A stretch of DNA of 64,000 bases from positions 4,361,738-4,425,737 of the forward strand of contig NZ_LR593886.1 in assembly GCF_901538265.1 (NCBI RefSeq), given 5' to 3'. Below the pieces are notes generated by a model. It had not been told where the DNA came from. It saw only the letters and a list, made by a program, of their open reading frames with translations, and ran no database searches. The position numbers and the translations under genes are program-made. Of the stretch, positions 13,472-32,934 are shown in pieces. How positions within the stretch are numbered: the first letter of the stretch is position 1; the number at the start of each line of letters is the position of its first letter. This stretch comes from Gemmata massiliana (GTDB lineage: Bacteria > Planctomycetota > Planctomycetia > Gemmatales > Gemmataceae).

Positions 13472-14872
13472 ATGAAAGTCATCTTCTTCGCGCTGAACGG
13501 GTGCCCGGCCAGTTGGCTGGGCGCTTACGGTAACGATTGGGTCGGCACCCCGCACCTCGACCGCCTCGCGTCCGAAGCCGTCACGTTCGACCGGCACATC
13601 AGTGACTGCCCCGAACCGTCCGCCGCGCGCCGGGCGTGGCTGGGGGCAGGTTGTGGCTCGAACCCCTCCCCAACCCCTCCCCTAAATGGAGAGGGGCTTA
13701 AAAGCAGTGAGAGCGGCGTGGCGCCGGTTGCGTTTGGTTCTGTTCCCCCTTCCTTCCTAGGGAAGGGGGGAAGGGGGTTAGGTTCTGCTCCCCGATCCAT
13801 TCTCATTCGCGCGAATCACCCCGATACGGACGCTCCCGACTGGTTCTACGCCGGCTGGGACGAAGTGTTCGACGCCCGACCGCAAGCGACCGATGATTCC
13901 CCGCTCGACGCGCTGCTCCGCGCGTTCCCCGCAATCCTCGACCGACTTGCTGACGTTCCCGATTTCCTGCTCTGGGTCGAGACCGATCGACTCATTCCGC
14001 CGTGGGACGTGCAGCAGGACGTGTTTGAAGCGTACTTGGAAGACGCGGAAGAGCCGGAACCCGAAGAGGATTCGGACCACCAAAGCGAGGATGACCCGGA
14101 CGACGCGGACGAAATTGACGCCGAGACGGAAACCGCTGAACAAGAAACTGAGGATCTTGAGGAACCGGACGTTGAGGCCGAAGCTGATCAGCCATTACCC
14201 GAGGAAGAGCCGGTCACGCCGTTCGCGGACCCGCCTACCGGACCGTTCGATCGGAGCGATCTCGACGCTTGGGACTGGCTGCACCGCACGTTCGCGGCCG
14301 TCGTGACGAAACTCGACGCCGAACTCGGGGGCCTTTTCGAGCACCTGCGCGAGCGCGGACTGGATCAATCTGCGGCGTGGATCGTGACATCTGATTACGG
14401 TCATCCGCTCGGCGAACACGGGCAGATCGGGTTGCATCGTCCCTGGCTTCATGAAGAATTCGTCCACCTGCCTCTCATCATGCGCCTCCCCCAAGGCAAA
14501 CAAGCCGGGCGCCGCGTTTTGGGCTTCACGCAACCGCCGGACGTGTGCCACACTCTTCACGCGCTCTTTGGGACTACTCCACCTACCAACTCGAACGGTT
14601 TCAGCCTTCTCCCGCTCGCGCACGGCGAAGCGGAATCGTTGCGCCCCTTCGTCTGCACCAAACTCGAGCTTGGTGACGCGACTGAGATTGCCATCCGCAC
14701 GGAGGATTCGGCCCTGTTGGTGCCGGTCCGTGTGCCCGAAGGCGATACTCCGCGTGAGCCGCTGTTGTACGAGAAGCCCGACGACCGTTGGGAGGTCAAT
14801 GACATCCGCGCGCGAAACATTGACCGAGCCGACGAACTCGAAGCGAAATTACGCGCGGAACTACAGAAATGA
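13472..14872 (+). CDS. Sulfatase/alkaline-phosphatase-superfamily-like protein with degenerate active site
   Basis: This 466-residue protein has the sulfatase scaffold at both ends but not the chemistry. The N-terminus MKVIFFALNGCPASWLGAYG lacks the usual metal-binding Asp pair. The formylglycine region reads SDCPEPSAARRAWLG, a loose version of CxPSR. The C-terminal part keeps WIVTSDYGHPLGEHGQ and FVHLPLIMRLP, but the usual DHG is DYG. Residues ~64-105 are the translation of a repeat element inserted in frame (13661-13784). Residues ~190-250 are very acidic (EEPEPEEDSDHQSEDDPDD). A non-catalytic role is inferred; a diverged hydrolase is possible. Confidence 0.68.
   Translation: MKVIFFALNGCPASWLGAYGNDWVGTPHLDRLASEAVTFDRHISDCPEPSAARRAWLGAGCGSNPSPTPPLNGEGLKSSESGVAPVAFGSVPPSFLGKGGRGLGSAPRSILIRANHPDTDAPDWFYAGWDEVFDARPQATDDSPLDALLRAFPAILDRLADVPDFLLWVETDRLIPPWDVQQDVFEAYLEDAEEPEPEEDSDHQSEDDPDDADEIDAETETAEQETEDLEEPDVEAEADQPLPEEEPVTPFADPPTGPFDRSDLDAWDWLHRTFAAVVTKLDAELGGLFEHLRERGLDQSAAWIVTSDYGHPLGEHGQIGLHRPWLHEEFVHLPLIMRLPQGKQAGRRVLGFTQPPDVCHTLHALFGTTPPTNSNGFSLLPLAHGEAESLRPFVCTKLELGDATEIAIRTEDSALLVPVRVPEGDTPREPLLYEKPDDRWEVNDIRARNIDRADELEAKLRAELQK
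13661..13784. repeat. In-frame palindromic repeat element inside the sulfatase-like gene
   Basis: The segment begins with C-rich sequence (two CCCCTCCCC-type blocks) and ends with G-rich sequence (GGGAAGGGGGGAAGGGGG). These outer parts form an imperfect inverted repeat, each with a smaller internal hairpin. Translated in the gene frame it gives low-complexity text such as NPSPTPPLNGEG and SFLGKGGRGLG with no stop. Its length keeps the frame open. It looks like a small REP/MITE-type insertion tolerated by the protein. Confidence 0.65.
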
Positions 14873-28085: not shown

Positions 28086-30551
28086 CTACTTCAACGGAAA
28101 CAGCACCGGGAATTTTGGTAGACGGCCCGCGTTGAGTGCGAGTTGCACGCCGGCGGCCGATTCTGTACCAGAAGTAGATTTTGTGAGGCGCGGTTCGCGT
28201 GTGAGGCGGTCGAACTGAAATGTGTTTGTCGCGCCGGCTTCCCAGAGCAGCTTCAAATCGCGCGTACCGGCCCGAATCGGCAGTTCCGCACGCAGACCGT
28301 CGCCGGCGCGGTACGCGAGTTTCGTGGGACCGTCCGGTAGTAACTGATACACGGTCGTGGTCCCGCGCATTACGCCCTTGCCGACCGTGAATTTCGCGAC
28401 GTCGGACGTCTGGTTCGCGTGCGTGACGGTTACCGTGAACGGTCCGCTCGGTTCCACGCGGTCGATCGTCAGGTCGAGTGGGATCGTGAGCTGGAATCCT
28501 TGTAAATCGAGGTCGAACACCTTCTTGTCGAGCCCGCGGAGGAAATCGGCTAGTTCCCCAACGGGGTCGGGGGCGGTCGGGTCTTGGAGGCGGGCCAGAA
28601 GGTGTAAGAGCTTGCCCCAATCACCGAATTTCGGTTCCGGAAGGGACTCCCCGAGCGCCTTCCAGCCTTCGGTGGTGTCTTTCACCGTGAATAGCTTTTG
28701 AACGTGCTTGGCGCCGACCCCGAACGACTTCCGGAGGCGCGCGAGAAGTTCCCCTCGCACCGGGTCCGGGAACCGTTGCGCCTCCCACTCGGAGAAGTCT
28801 TCGGATTGCCGTGTGTAGGTCCGCGTAAGTGCTTGTAAGCGCGTGGTCGCGAGCGCGGCGGAGTCGCTGCCGTTTGGTTCCGGAAGTACGAGTACGGCTT
28901 CGGGCCGGTTCGGAGCGGCGATCAGCCCGAGTGCGCCGGCGAGATCGCGTAAGTGGATGATCTGATCGTGCGTTTGCTCCCAGTATCGGCGTGCCTTGTA
29001 CGCTTCGTCGAATTCGTAAGGGACGCTGTACGTGATCGCTTCGCCGCGCGGCTGGCGCACTGTGGGCGAGTTCGGGATCGGATCATTCAGAGGGAAGGGC
29101 GGTTTTTCGGCAGTTGCGAACAGGGCGTCGATGTCCTTCAACCAGTTCTCGTCGAACGTCCGCTTCAGCATGAGCGCGGTGCCGTCGCGATCGAGGGCAC
29201 GATACCGGTCCACGAACGCGGCCTGTGCGACCTCAAGCGCGGCGCAGTCCGCGAGCCACTTGTCGCGGAGTTGCGCTGCGGCGGTTTCGCCCCAGGAGTA
29301 TTCAGCGGGCAGCGCGAGTTCGGTCCGCAGTGATTCTTTGATCTTCTTCAGTTCCGGTAGGCTGCGCGCTCCGGTCGGAGCGATCGCGCCCGCGAGCTTC
29401 GCGCGGTACGCACGGTAGTCGTCGATCTCTTTCAGTCGGCTCGTGACGAACGTTCGGCGGTCTTCGGAGAGGCGTGCGAACGCACTGTCCCCTGCGAACC
29501 GGCTCAGGGCCGTTTTGTTGCGCTCGATGTGTTCGTCCGCGAGGCGCTCCGCGGCGGGGCGCTCCTGGCGCTCGTAGTCGTCGATTTTGGCCGCGAGATC
29601 GGGACCGGTCGTTTCAGGCGGGAACAAGGCGATCGTACCGAGCGTAAGGAGCAGGAACGTCAGTCCGGTCAGTGTACCGCGGACCGTCCAGCGCAATCGC
29701 TTTTCGGACTGGCGCACGCGATCGTGGTGTGACTTCGCTCCAGAAAAACAATCGCGGAACAATTCGGCGACCTGATACGGTTGGTCGCCCGGGGCGGGGT
29801 GCTCGGCGAGCGGTGGTCGACGAATGGCGACCGCGGACACTTCGAGATCCACGCTGCCGAACGCCAAAAACGGCGAGTCACGCCCCTCTTCCGGGTCCGC
29901 GTCCTTCAGGTACTCCTCGAACGCCTTCCATGCGTAATCGACGCGGTCTTTAACTCGGGCTTCCCAGGTTTTCTGCGTGTCCCGGGGCTGCGCGAGTCGG
30001 TCGCACTGCGTCAGAACGAGGAAGATCGGGAACCCGCCGACGGAGCGGCTATCGGTCTTCGCGCTTTCGACCGTCGAGAGGAACGCATCGAATTCGTCGA
30101 ACGCCTCGGTCAGTTCTTCGCGCGTGCTGGAAGCGTCCACGAGCAGCACGATAGCATCGGTTTCGACCACGGCTCGCGCGAGCGCGCTACCCGGAGCGCG
30201 CTGCGTGATCGGGGCGGGGTGCTTCATTAGCGCTTCGGCCGCTTTCCCGTCGCAGTCGTCGAGCACGACCGTGAGCGGCTCCATCAGCGGTTGCTTGCCG
30301 ACGCGCCAGGGGCGCAAGCGGATCGTGAAACTCGAAAGTTCGGTGTTCGTAGATTCGAGCTTCCCGCTGTACGCCGCCTCACGGATGCGCGGGAGATCCA
30401 CCGACGAACTGACGACCTCACCTCGAAGCGTCTCGCCCTGCGTTTCGCCCGCCTGCAATAGCGCACCAATGAGCGCGGACTTCCCCGATCCGCGGTGCCC
30501 GAACAGCAGCACGCGGGGGACGTCGAACGGAGGGGGATCGGGTGTCTCCAT
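28086..30551 (-). CDS. Large membrane-anchored P-loop GTPase-like protein
   Basis: This 821-residue protein has an N-terminal P-loop domain (~12-260): the Walker A is GHRGSGKS (18-25), a Walker-B-like stretch reads LTVVLDDCDG, and LVLTQCDRL sits where the guanine-specificity NKxD motif would be. A single transmembrane helix (GLTFLLLTLGTIALF, ~300) leads to a long presumably periplasmic part. That part is helical at first (RLKEIDDYRAYRAKLAG), then beta-rich (LDLTIDRVEPSGPFTVTVTHANQ). The plan resembles TssM/IcmF in outline (GTPase, helix, periplasmic body), but I see no clear sequence match. It is the last gene after TolQ/TolR-like genes, separated from them by a 28-bp palindrome. Confidence 0.7.
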   Translation of the reverse strand: METPDPPPFDVPRVLLFGHRGSGKSALIGALLQAGETQGETLRGEVVSSSVDLPRIREAAYSGKLESTNTELSSFTIRLRPWRVGKQPLMEPLTVVLDDCDGKAAEALMKHPAPITQRAPGSALARAVVETDAIVLLVDASSTREELTEAFDEFDAFLSTVESAKTDSRSVGGFPIFLVLTQCDRLAQPRDTQKTWEARVKDRVDYAWKAFEEYLKDADPEEGRDSPFLAFGSVDLEVSAVAIRRPPLAEHPAPGDQPYQVAELFRDCFSGAKSHHDRVRQSEKRLRWTVRGTLTGLTFLLLTLGTIALFPPETTGPDLAAKIDDYERQERPAAERLADEHIERNKTALSRFAGDSAFARLSEDRRTFVTSRLKEIDDYRAYRAKLAGAIAPTGARSLPELKKIKESLRTELALPAEYSWGETAAAQLRDKWLADCAALEVAQAAFVDRYRALDRDGTALMLKRTFDENWLKDIDALFATAEKPPFPLNDPIPNSPTVRQPRGEAITYSVPYEFDEAYKARRYWEQTHDQIIHLRDLAGALGLIAAPNRPEAVLVLPEPNGSDSAALATTRLQALTRTYTRQSEDFSEWEAQRFPDPVRGELLARLRKSFGVGAKHVQKLFTVKDTTEGWKALGESLPEPKFGDWGKLLHLLARLQDPTAPDPVGELADFLRGLDKKVFDLDLQGFQLTIPLDLTIDRVEPSGPFTVTVTHANQTSDVAKFTVGKGVMRGTTTVYQLLPDGPTKLAYRAGDGLRAELPIRAGTRDLKLLWEAGATNTFQFDRLTREPRLTKSTSGTESAAGVQLALNAGRLPKFPVLFPLK

Positions 30552-30591
30552 AAACGCAGATCGTCGTATTCGGGCAGTTTTGGAGTCTCAT

Positions 30592-30696
30592 AACGAGCCG
30601 CGACCGCAAGGGAGCGGGAGGCAGTGCCTCCCTTTCGCGGTCGTAGCGCTATCCATGAGAGCCGTAGTTCCCGCTCCCTTGCGGTCGCGGCTCGTT
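30592..30696. repeat. Perfect 28-bp inverted repeat between tol-like genes and the GTPase gene
   Basis: Arms 30592-30619 and 30669-30696 are exact 28-base complements. The 49-base interior holds a smaller GGAGGCAGTGCCTCC hairpin and a partial echo of the arm (TTTCGCGGTCG). It lies in the 168-base space before the GTPase start. It could attenuate transcription into the GTPase gene or be an inserted palindromic element. Confidence 0.78.
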
Positions 30697-30719
30697 CGAT
30701 CATCGCTCCCTCGGTCGCG

Positions 30720-31385
30720 TCACTCGAAGCGGCTGAGCACTTTGGCCTCTTGCACCCACGCGCTGAGCCGCTTCATTTCCGGGTGACTGTTGGACAGCGG
30801 ATCTTTTGCGAAGCGGAACACCAGCGTCAGTTCAGTCTTGGTGCTCGTGCGACGGTCGGTGATCGCCTTCTTCAGTTCGTCGAAGGTCTTTGCGGTCGTT
30901 TCGTTGTCGAGCACGTAGAACTTGCCGTCACGAACGTCCGCCCCGCTGAGGATCGCGACTCGCACGTCGCCCGGAGTCGGCTTCGGGTCCGGCGGCTTGG
31001 GTTCAACCTTCGGTAGTACGAGCTTCGGCTCTTCCTGCGGAGGGACGGACGGGGACGGCTGTTGCTTGTCTTTGTTCTCCGTAGCCGGCGCTCCCTTTCC
31101 GTCGCCCGGCGCTCCGCCCCCGCCGAACAACCCGCCGCCGTCGCCGAACACGATCAGCGCGACGACGATGGCCAGCACGAGGCCGCAGAGCATCGAGCAC
31201 AGCTTCTTGAGTTGAACGGGGGCTTTGTGCGCGAAGACCCAGCGGTCGAGCGCCCACGCGAGCACGCTGCCCGCGAAGTACCCGACGAGGAACCCGCCGC
31301 CCACGGCCAAGCACTTGATGACGTACCCGGCGAGTTTCTCGCTCAGCCCGGACGTGAGTCCGTCGGCGATCAGAGTTTCACACAT
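30720..31385 (-). CDS. Membrane protein with proline-rich linker, possible TolA-like or TolR-fold partner
   Basis: This 221-residue protein of unknown family has two hydrophobic segments (~20-45 GGGFLVGYFAGSVLAWAL and ~62-80 MLCGLVLAIVVALIVFG). A glycine- and proline/lysine-rich linker follows (~82-140, including PKVEPKPPDPKPTPG). The C-terminal ~80 residues form a small domain: RVAILSGADVRDGKFYVL, then TFDELKKAITDRR and LTLVFRFAKD. That pattern resembles the ExbD/TolR periplasmic fold; the linker layout recalls TolA. Both are inferences. It starts 24 bases after the TolR-like gene ends. The frame holds a CDS-like codon pattern and an ATG at 31383-31385. Confidence 0.72.
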   Translation of the reverse strand: MCETLIADGLTSGLSEKLAGYVIKCLAVGGGFLVGYFAGSVLAWALDRWVFAHKAPVQLKKLCSMLCGLVLAIVVALIVFGDGGGLFGGGGAPGDGKGAPATENKDKQQPSPSVPPQEEPKLVLPKVEPKPPDPKPTPGDVRVAILSGADVRDGKFYVLDNETTAKTFDELKKAITDRRTSTKTELTLVFRFAKDPLSNSHPEMKRLSAWVQEAKVLSRFE

Positions 31386-31409
31386 GGCGGCTGCGCCTCG
31401 TCGTGCGGG

Positions 31410-31922
31410 CTACTGGAACTCGTGCGGGATGTCGCGGAACCAGTGGTGGATCTGGTCTTCTTGCGCCTTGGTCGGGAACCCCAGCGAGTTTTCCGGGTAG
31501 AGGATCAGGAAGTAGAGATCCTTCACCCCGCCGGCCTTGCTCGCGAGCGTCTTCTGGTGGATCACGAACCGCTGGGCATCGGCCTCGGTGCGAATTTCTT
31601 GCCGGTCCGGGTCGAAGTAGTAGAGCGTGCCGTCTTTCCGATCGGTGTGGAGCACTCGCACCACGAGTCGGTCGGTTACGCGAGCTTGTGCGAGTTTTTC
31701 CGTTCGCGCGAGGCGGTCCCGGGCCTCGGCGAGTTGGCGCTGTAGTTCCTGCACGTTGTCGGGCAGCGGGTCTTTCGGCGGGGCCGGTTTCGTGTCCGTC
31801 TGCTCGGGAGCGGACCCGCCGCTGACGAAGGGCATCAGCAGGAATATGCAAAACAGCAGAATGAGGACGTCGATGAGGGGAATGAAGAACCGGGTTACGG
31901 CCCGGCGCGGCGGGGTAATCAC
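31410..31922 (-). CDS. TolR/ExbD-like proton-channel subunit
   Basis: This 170-residue protein has a short cytoplasmic N-terminus and one membrane helix, RFFIPLIDVLILLFCIFLL, with a conserved-type Asp (Asp18) at the position used for proton transfer in ExbD/TolR. A coiled coil (NVQELQRQLAEARDRLARTE) and a periplasmic domain follow. The start is a GTG at 31920-31922 that overlaps the TGA of the TolQ-like gene (GTGA), a sign of translational coupling. The periplasmic domain is longer and more charged than in classical TolR. With its upstream partner it probably harvests proton motive force. Confidence 0.82.
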   Translation of the reverse strand: MITPPRRAVTRFFIPLIDVLILLFCIFLLMPFVSGGSAPEQTDTKPAPPKDPLPDNVQELQRQLAEARDRLARTEKLAQARVTDRLVVRVLHTDRKDGTLYYFDPDRQEIRTEADAQRFVIHQKTLASKAGGVKDLYFLILYPENSLGFPTKAQEDQIHHWFRDIPHEFQ

Positions 31923-32458
31923 AGCTTGGCCCCCGGCGCGCCGGGCGGCTCGGGGGGCGGCGCGATGCCCGCCAACGAGCGGATCAGGTCGCGCCCGATG
32001 GCGACCACCCACACCGGCAGAATGTTAATGAACGCCATGTACAGCCCGCCGCCGGTCGCGGTGATCGCGGGGGCGTACTTGCGGATGATGTCCTGCGGGG
32101 TCGGGTTCGCGCCCGGGGTGATCGAGCTGAACGTTTGCAGGATCGCCGCGACCGTCCCGATGAGGCCCAGGAGCGGGAACCACTCCGCGGCCTGGCACAG
32201 GTGGCTGAGCCAGCGGTCGGCCTTGAGGTCGAAGTCCGCGGACTGCCAGCGCATCGCGCGCCACGCGAGGACGGTCTGCGCCACGAACAGCGTGAAGCCG
32301 ATGCCCAGGATGATCCAGTCGATCGGGGACGTTTCGACGCGCGCGAGGTAGTCGCGGCGCGCATCGGCGGGCACCGCGACGAAGACGAGCGCCGCGGCCA
32401 GCACCGGGACCGCGGCGAATACCGCCGGGAGCACCTGATGAATCCAGAAGCGGCGCAC
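31919..32458 (-). CDS. TolQ/ExbB/MotA-family proton-channel subunit
   Basis: This 179-residue inner-membrane protein has three to four helices. The family core is visible: AAEWFPLLGLIGTVAAILQTF (like the GLxGTV helix of TolQ/ExbB) and YAPAITATGGGLYMAFINILP (like the second channel helix with its conserved small residues). The cytoplasmic loop between the first helices is short. The start is a GTG (32456-32458) with a strong GGAGG five bases upstream. It partners with the TolR-like gene by a GTGA overlap. The gene follows a YbgC-type thioesterase, as in tol-pal operons. Confidence 0.82.
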   Translation of the reverse strand: MRRFWIHQVLPAVFAAVPVLAAALVFVAVPADARRDYLARVETSPIDWIILGIGFTLFVAQTVLAWRAMRWQSADFDLKADRWLSHLCQAAEWFPLLGLIGTVAAILQTFSSITPGANPTPQDIIRKYAPAITATGGGLYMAFINILPVWVVAIGRDLIRSLAGIAPPPEPPGAPGAKL

Positions 32459-32547
32459 GGAACCTCCCTGCGTTGGCGACCGGCCGGTGTGGGCCGGTCC
32501 GTGAGCGAGTCGTTACTTCGCGCGTCGGTTCCACCGACGGCACCCGC

Positions 32548-32934
32548 CTATTTCGTTTCCGACAACCACTGCGGCATCTCGCGCAGCTTCCCGTCGCGCC
32601 CCACGCACGCGAGCGTCGTCGCGCCCTCGGTAATGAGCGCGCCGTCGCGGAACACTTCGTACTTGTGTTCCAGTCGGACGGCGCTAGTCCGAGTCACGGT
32701 CGTGCGAATCGTCAGGACGTCGTCGTAGTGCGCGGGGTTTTTGAACTTCACCTCGGCCTTCGCAACGACCAAGAAGTACCCCTGGTCTTCCAATTCCTTA
32801 TACGATGCGTGGCGCCCGCGGAGCAACTCCGTTCGGGCCTGCTCGAAGTACACTAGGTAGTTCGCGTGGTGGAGCAGGCCCATTCGGTCCGTCTCGGCGT
32901 ACCGCACGCGAATCTGGATCTCGCCGGTTAGCAT
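32548..32934 (-). CDS. YbgC-type acyl-CoA thioesterase (hot-dog fold)
   Basis: This 128-residue cytoplasmic thioesterase is of normal family length. The catalytic signature YAETDRMGLLHHANYLVYFEQART contains the Asp of the 4-hydroxybenzoyl-CoA thioesterase/YbgC active site. The middle DDVLTIRTTVTRTSAVRLEHKYEV matches the hot-dog sheet. The ATG has GGAGGGAG just upstream. Its position just before TolQ- and TolR-like genes repeats the ybgC-tolQ-tolR order known from proteobacteria, which supports reading the downstream genes as a Tol-like system. The acyl substrate is not known. Confidence 0.92.
   Translation of the reverse strand: MLTGEIQIRVRYAETDRMGLLHHANYLVYFEQARTELLRGRHASYKELEDQGYFLVVAKAEVKFKNPAHYDDVLTIRTTVTRTSAVRLEHKYEVFRDGALITEGATTLACVGRDGKLREMPQWLSETK

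Follow-up and report, generated by a model that had tools for sequence, protein, structure and literature searches.

What does a locus encode in which genes in Tol-like order are followed by a gene for a large membrane GTPase: one machine of the cell envelope, or several functions that happen to be neighbours? The case considered here lies in a stretch of 64,000 nucleotides of Gemmata massiliana (NZ_LR593886.1, positions 4,361,738 to 4,425,737; hereafter the window), which sits in a 10.1-Mb genome of one contig. Five open reading frames were confirmed, all on the minus strand, in the order YbgC, TolQ-like, TolR-like, a two-helix fourth protein and the GTPase. A first-pass annotation had reported this Tol-like order and a translational coupling within it, and both are real: the GTG start of the TolR-like gene and the TGA stop of the TolQ-like gene overlap as GTGA. 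The five genes are as follows.

32934-32548, minus strand: YbgC/FadM-family acyl-CoA thioesterase, 128 residues, over the cut-off of TIGR00051
32458-31919, minus strand: TolQ/ExbB/MotA-family proton-channel subunit (PF01618), 179 residues, GTG start
31922-31410, minus strand: TolR/ExbD-like subunit, 170 residues, GTG start, with the invariant transmembrane Asp motif L-I-D18-V-L
31385-30720, minus strand: fourth protein, 221 residues, with two predicted transmembrane helices, a proline-rich linker (about 88-137) and a predicted ExbD/TolR-fold domain (138-221), from AlphaFold2, Foldseek and VIA
30551-28086, minus strand: membrane GTPase, 821 residues, with a G domain (about 9-280), a transmembrane helix (about 285-309), module A (312-540) and module B (541-821), from AlphaFold2, VIA and alignments

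Our analysis leans towards the view that the locus encodes one inner-membrane, TolQR-type envelope motor of the Gemmatales, which the GTPase recruits or switches. The unit is nearly confined to this order and is not accidental, because of the 73 Gemmatales genomes that are at least 90% complete, 61 carry TolQ, the fourth protein and the GTPase family together. The order was called Gemmatales from the names of matched records, the remaining genomes carrying kinship labels. Taken singly, TolQ was found in 69 of the 73 genomes (including G039, whose match is a short TolQ of a sister type), the fourth protein in 66 and the GTPase family in 66, or 63 once three weak matches are dropped (G259, 6.7e-4; G091, 7.3e-4; G125, 3.0e-6); a diverged GTPase homologue in G143 enters neither GTPase count. 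Across a class sample of 248 genomes, the TolQ subfamily was present in 63, comprising 62 of 68 within the order and, at a threshold of E<=1e-12, one of 180 outside it (G186, E 7e-16).

The first-pass annotation had held that the grouping would be accidental if its neighbours were not conserved elsewhere, and conservation extends to gene order. Among 70 named loci, annotated after being found through TolQ alone, 29 carry YbgC, TolQ, TolR, the fourth gene and the GTPase in this order, with an extra unlabelled frame in between in a few, and a further seven are complete save for a called YbgC. The fourth gene without a GTPase occurs in 13 loci (seven near a contig end) and TolQ with TolR only in nine (four near a contig end); the remainder comprises four other partial sets and eight loci without a called TolQ. 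Of the 62 named loci in which TolQ was called, 53 have YbgC no more than two genes upstream of it.

The genomes in which the operon is broken bear on whether the GTPase belongs to the motor at all. In 43 of the 61 genomes with all three components these are neighbours within 5 kb; in nine the GTPase gene lies apart from linked TolQ and fourth genes (in some by contig ends), in eight TolQ lies elsewhere while the fourth gene and the GTPase stay adjacent, and in one all three are scattered. Contig breaks explain part of these 18 split cases, but not G200, G150 or G028. In G200, which has one main contig, TolQ (3.13 Mb) is far from the fourth gene and the GTPase, which lie together at 9.36 Mb; in G150 the same separation spans two contigs, both sites being away from contig ends; in G028 TolQ and the fourth gene are linked and the GTPase lies inside another contig. 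Such breaks, after which the pieces are nevertheless kept, were counted in favour of one machine. The nine genomes with a distant GTPase can also be read in another way, namely that the motor consists of TolQ, TolR and the fourth protein only and that the GTPase is a separate envelope or export factor sharing the operon, perhaps tied to signal peptidases and LepA. This appears rather unlikely to us. It would fit the five genomes with TolQ and the fourth protein in which the GTPase match is absent or weak (one of them, G143, has a diverged homologue lacking the P-loop beside the fourth gene), the gap with an inverted repeat that precedes the GTPase gene, and the top Foldseek row of the GTPase, which is the beta subunit of the signal recognition particle (SRP) receptor. 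That rank, however, is common to many small GTPases, and the VIA list is led by Rag GTPases instead; the GTPase family is found in 62 of the 69 TolQ-positive genomes, and of the eight genomes that keep it beside the fourth gene with TolQ elsewhere, G200 and G150 are surely not products of contig ends.

The preferred reading, a single motor that includes the GTPase, begins with a channel pair whose key residues are conserved. The TolQ-like protein is a member of Pfam MotA_ExbB (PF01618; 36.7 bits against a cut-off of 22.9; E 4.2e-9), and a gap-free profile alignment with E. coli TolQ (8odt) places Thr102 and Thr135 on Thr145 and Thr178, which an excerpt of PMC12583513 describes as channel threonines. 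Both residues are kept in all 61 aligned sequences. Its partner is identified as TolR-like because of the invariant transmembrane Asp motif: Asp18 is kept in 60 of 60 aligned sequences, in the same L-x-D-V-L setting as Asp23 in the E. coli TolR motif L21LDVLLVLLL30 (PMC12583513, same excerpt). The protein falls below the cut-off of Pfam ExbD (PF02472; 10.6 against 25.4 bits), a model that matches 19 of 48 TolR-like rows at E<=0.1 (best 9.5e-5), the row from the window not among them. Its PDB profile match is MotB (6ykp, E 0.0018), and in hhalign comparisons with four ExbD proteins only the transmembrane segment with the Asp motif (P-x-x-D-V-L) aligns. Judged by these residues, the TolQ/TolR-like pair likely conducts protons, and the proposal of a membrane GTPase as standing partner in a conserved Tol-like unit that bears a proton-channel signature has held.

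For the fourth protein, AlphaFold2 (46 sequences) predicts helices at 4-49 and 57-80, a low-confidence linker with 13 prolines in 50 residues, and a confident β-β-α-β-α-β domain at 140-220. The first Foldseek row is an ExbD, and 8vgd, 8vgc, 5by4 and 8p9r (ExbD and TolR) are among the first 16; the top five VIA rows are all ExbD or TolR (Z 7.6-8.1, root-mean-square deviation 2.4-3.1, 71-82 residues aligned), the best unrelated row on this domain reaching Z 5.8. TolA, TonB and TssM are not among the rows shown, which exclude nothing. A TolA-like nature had been suggested for this protein: its layout does resemble TolA and TonB, while its small domain models as ExbD/TolR and would differ from them in fold. 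The SHLS motif of the TolA/TonB transmembrane helix, as described in a portion of PMC12204202, was not seen by eye in the window protein, the only one inspected for it. The predicted helices show no conserved acidic position, and there are two of them rather than a single transmembrane segment with a proton-binding Asp, so that the protein would not be a second proton-carrying ExbD.

The GTPase model (AlphaFold2 with 37 homologues; mean predicted local distance difference test score 87.3) comprises a GTPase fold at about 9-280, a long helix at 261-309 and a body at 319-821, which is probably periplasmic. RagC and RagD lead the VIA list for the whole model with Z 17.8 (RagC 3llu: root-mean-square deviation 2.6 over 177 aligned residues), a list that covers the G domain only and not residues 319-821. 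The G domain of the window protein carries the motifs GHRGSGKS, DCDG and TQCD, the last being TKCD in many relatives, and in an alignment of 28 of the 31 listed G domains, from which proteins lacking that domain were left out, G16, K17, D92 and D177 (domain numbering) do not vary. The DCDG motif is mostly followed by K or R. In Ras, a catalytic Gln follows this motif; because it is absent here, hydrolysis may be slow or require an outside activator.

The same G domains raise the prospect of a DO-GTPase-like conflict or defence system that has borrowed a proton channel, DO-GTPase systems having been proposed as conflict systems in the part of PMC7159879 available. We regard this as highly improbable. 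Weak DO-GTPase2 similarity was detected in 21 of the 28 G domains (best 7.2e-7), and a diverged sister cluster in G025, described below, contains a DO-GTPase1 protein over its cut-off; yet the DO-GTPase models (PF19975/PF19993) found nothing at E<=1 in the GTPase of the window and stayed below cut-off in five full-length relatives, PADLOC returned no match at E<=0.01 in the six proteins scanned, and the unit is conserved across the order beside lepA and lepB.

How far the envelope motor depends on GTP is indicated by natural variants. The GTPase family occurs in 41 of the 70 named loci: 23 have the G domain with modules A and B, 12 the G domain with module A, and four module A or A-B without a G domain; of the remaining two, L122 is degenerate and L078 is cut by a contig end. 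Module A is thereby present in 39 of the 41 and the P-loop in 36. A P-loop-less protein directly follows the fourth gene in G036, G037, G143 and G203. GTP binding, as far as sequence tells, is not universal, since in several lineages the protein retains its transmembrane segment and body but has no P-loop. The proposal of a GTP-gated motor fails as a general description for this reason; gating is possible, and would be dispensable in some lineages. Since P-loop-less forms are retained, the membrane and body part probably has a role beyond GTP. In a midpoint-rooted TolQ tree of 69 rows, 11 of the 12 rows lacking module B fall in one supported clade, together with the unassigned L118, L135 lies outside that clade, and forms without a G domain sit on several separate branches; since its branches are long, some forks are open and the root is placed at the midpoint, the tree fixes neither the number of losses nor whether loss or ancestral absence is involved. 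In L135, the short GTPase is immediately followed by a separate frame of 247 residues (13490-14233) that is a repeat of module A only, and G197 has two such neighbouring module A-type matches.

Several observations count against a single GTPase-controlled motor. The unit is dispensable, since G091 (100% complete, and counted as empty after its weak GTPase match of 7.3e-4 was set aside), G038 and G042 are without all three parts. The P-loop is absent in five of the 41 named loci with the GTPase family and module B in 12, and among 13 genomes with odd matches seven are without a P-loop, five keep it and one is cut by a contig end; these 13 come from 20 stretches picked for partial, split or missing matches and overlap with the 41 loci, so that their ratio is not a frequency. 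The fourth protein resembles ExbD by predicted fold only: its ExbD/TolR rows in Foldseek have E values of 0.09-0.94 and are mixed with unrelated rows, its VIA Z is about 8, where the tool itself cautions that values below 8 can be of little significance, and hhalign found no match to four ExbD proteins of this genome and gave 19.7% probability against the TolR of the locus. Pfam, NCBIfam and PADLOC scans likewise gave neither a name nor a sequence-level ExbD match for the fourth protein, and no name for the body of the GTPase protein; profile searches with its modules A and B against PDB sequences turned up weak and unrelated matches (best E 0.008 and 0.08). Both the complex and its function are inferred from genes and predicted folds.

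Under the favoured reading, the machine would have three elements: a proton-driven motor of the TolQ5TolR2 type (a stoichiometry taken from relatives); another subunit of ExbD fold, tethered by a flexible stretch rich in proline; and a small GTPase that is anchored in the membrane and has a large body in the periplasm. Protons passing TolR Asp18 and the threonines of TolQ would move TolR against TolQ, and the tethered ExbD-like domain together with modules A and B of the GTPase would pass this motion to the wall or the outer membrane. The cytoplasmic G domain, presumably an add-on given its absence from some lineages, most likely serves to recruit the assembly or to switch it, MglA in Myxococcus being the analogy.

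A more conventional explanation is that the locus is a Tol-Pal system for outer-membrane constriction in which TolA, TolB and Pal have been replaced one for one. The order YbgC-TolQ-TolR is that of classical tol operons, TolQ models score slightly higher than ExbB models on the TolQ-like protein, and Pal and TolB are not recognised in these genomes; the first-pass annotation had accordingly placed the GTPase where TolB and Pal would be and suggested looking for their loss in genomes with the locus. The lack proved not to be tied to it. Of 198 genomes of the class, this one included, not one has a match over cut-off to Pal (TIGR02802) or TolB (TIGR02800), each of which is over cut-off in two of 14 controls, and sub-threshold matches to them occur in 105 and 194 of the 198, respectively. 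Because class families without this locus equally lack a recognised Pal or TolB, the GTPase is not a lineage-specific replacement for them. The fourth-protein domain, moreover, models as ExbD/TolR, and the YbgC-like protein, which passes the NCBIfam YbgC/FadM subfamily model TIGR00051 (92.7 bits, cut-off 68.7), remains below the Tol-Pal-specific TIGR02799 (98.5 against 141.35 bits). A one-for-one replacement therefore strikes us as distinctly unlikely.

This genome has two OmpA-domain matches, neither of which looks like Pal: a 776-residue protein encoded in a contractile-tail-like cluster (L074, 9164-11494), which has an OmpA-type domain as well as peptidoglycan-binding domains, and a 400-residue protein that is MlaD-like by eye. 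Of the five additional MotA_ExbB loci in the genome, one lies beside flagellar-looking genes and two adjoin pairs of ExbD genes. One locus (L069, 7539-12973) holds an ExbB-like gene, two ExbD genes, a 497-residue protein and a 544-residue protein, which has an N-terminal helix that looks TonB-like on visual inspection and a terpene-cyclase-like match slightly under cut-off; the locus is possibly a different force transducer. Another (L073, 6605-10282) encodes a MotA_ExbB protein, a 412-residue protein and a 518-residue vWA protein that has a hydrophobic stretch at its N terminus and calls to mind the vWA motor partners described in a portion of PMC12204202.

A bolder version of the GTPase-controlled motor, which we offer tentatively and consider doubtful, is that a transmembrane small GTPase, sensing or pulling on the wall through its periplasmic body, switches the envelope coupling of a proton motor. 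If so, a GTP signal passing from the inside out would be united with a stroke driven by protons in one bacterial complex, and a machine nearly confined to the Gemmatales could shape the deep membrane invaginations of Gemmata, whose elaborate, invaginated membrane system is described in part of PMC3660258. The locus is in any case a defined, order-wide candidate for an envelope motor in bacteria where Pal and TolB are not recognised, and may bear on how their two membranes are mechanically linked; the variants that occur naturally, lacking the G domain or module B or having a split operon, offer ready-made tests of the roles of the parts. No description of the unit was found in the open-licence literature.

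Upstream of the five genes, LepA and two signal-peptidase-like genes are conserved neighbours across the order, and metF is the next gene after the GTPase. The remaining features are as follows.

34771-33005, minus strand: LepB1, signal peptidase I-like, conserved upstream neighbour (PF10502, E 5.7e-32 in the longer frame, and position)
36573-34948, minus strand: LepB2, second signal-peptidase-like neighbour (position; named from sequence)
38500-36698, minus strand: conserved upstream neighbour that we take from its sequence to be LepA/EF4-like (position)
30592-30619 and 30669-30696: 28-bp perfect inverted repeat, arms 49 bases apart, in the gap that separates the GTPase gene from the fourth gene

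That gap measures 168 bases. The 18-base core of the repeat has two copies in the window against 0.02 expected, and exact copies occur in six of 193 loci, half of these being from this genome and half from the relative G012, where the repeat stands at the same place with a third copy between YbgC and TolQ (L040). The closer relative G009 (L039) has no exact match to the core; among named relatives, Gemmata sp. IIL30 is the closest by TolQ. The repeat may be a hairpin or a small mobile element. Promoter and terminator scans were close to chance level, and no tandem repeats were found.

Among known systems, TssM/IcmF has a P-loop domain, a transmembrane helix and a large periplasmic body of helices and strands, a layout shared by the GTPase; PF14331 (TssM/IcmF) matches three of the 28 G domains (best 7.3e-5), whereas IcmF_C (PF06744) occurs in none of 98 class genomes, this one included. 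DO-GTPases share a TRAFAC-type G domain, a membrane context and weak Pfam similarity, but their profile cut-offs are not reached by the window protein or by five full-length relatives (no search was made for GAP1), and the available text of PMC7159879 does not mention TolQ, MotA, ExbB or a proton channel. Tol-Pal shares the YbgC-TolQ-TolR order and the Thr/Thr/Asp proton path; here, in contrast, TolB and Pal are not recognised, the fourth domain models as ExbD/TolR, a membrane GTPase is added and TolR lies below the Pfam cut-off. The vWA force transducers of PVC bacteria, encoded with tolQ and paired tolR (PMC12204202, in part), offer another planctomycete TolQ-type motor with two TolR-type partners and an unusual transducer, although the locus proteins scanned had no vWA match and a GTPase appears instead.

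A related pairing occurs in a second, diverged cluster of G025 (L193, 6592-11583), with a short TolQ, TolR, membrane proteins and a 636-residue protein of the DO-GTPase1 family (over the PF19975 cut-off); its membrane proteins (E 0.0003-0.002) and a further protein are faintly similar to the fourth protein. Because it again joins TolQ, TolR and a GTPase, this cluster was counted in favour of one machine. G039 has a similar short TolQ and two faint fourth-protein matches (E 0.009) and G186 a TolQ match only, with no GTPase recognised in either. As single-sequence queries against 392 phylum genomes, the GTPase and TolQ of the sister cluster matched none and one (the present genome), respectively, in a sample in which the presence of the carriers was not established. 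MglA of Myxococcus is soluble and encoded elsewhere than the Agl motor genes, whereas the GTPase of this locus spans the membrane. Both Agl partners match Pfam ExbD, while the second ExbD-fold protein here has two helices and no membrane Asp. Even so, the Myxococcus AglRQS motor, according to the part of PMC3169522 consulted, likewise joins a TolQ homologue and two ExbD/TolR-type partners, in a gliding machinery that involves the Ras homologue MglA, a link also named in a reference title in PMC13104615; the pairing of a TolQR-type motor with a GTPase, which had been thought new, thus has a precedent. The sister cluster in G025 hints that such pairing is a wider theme.

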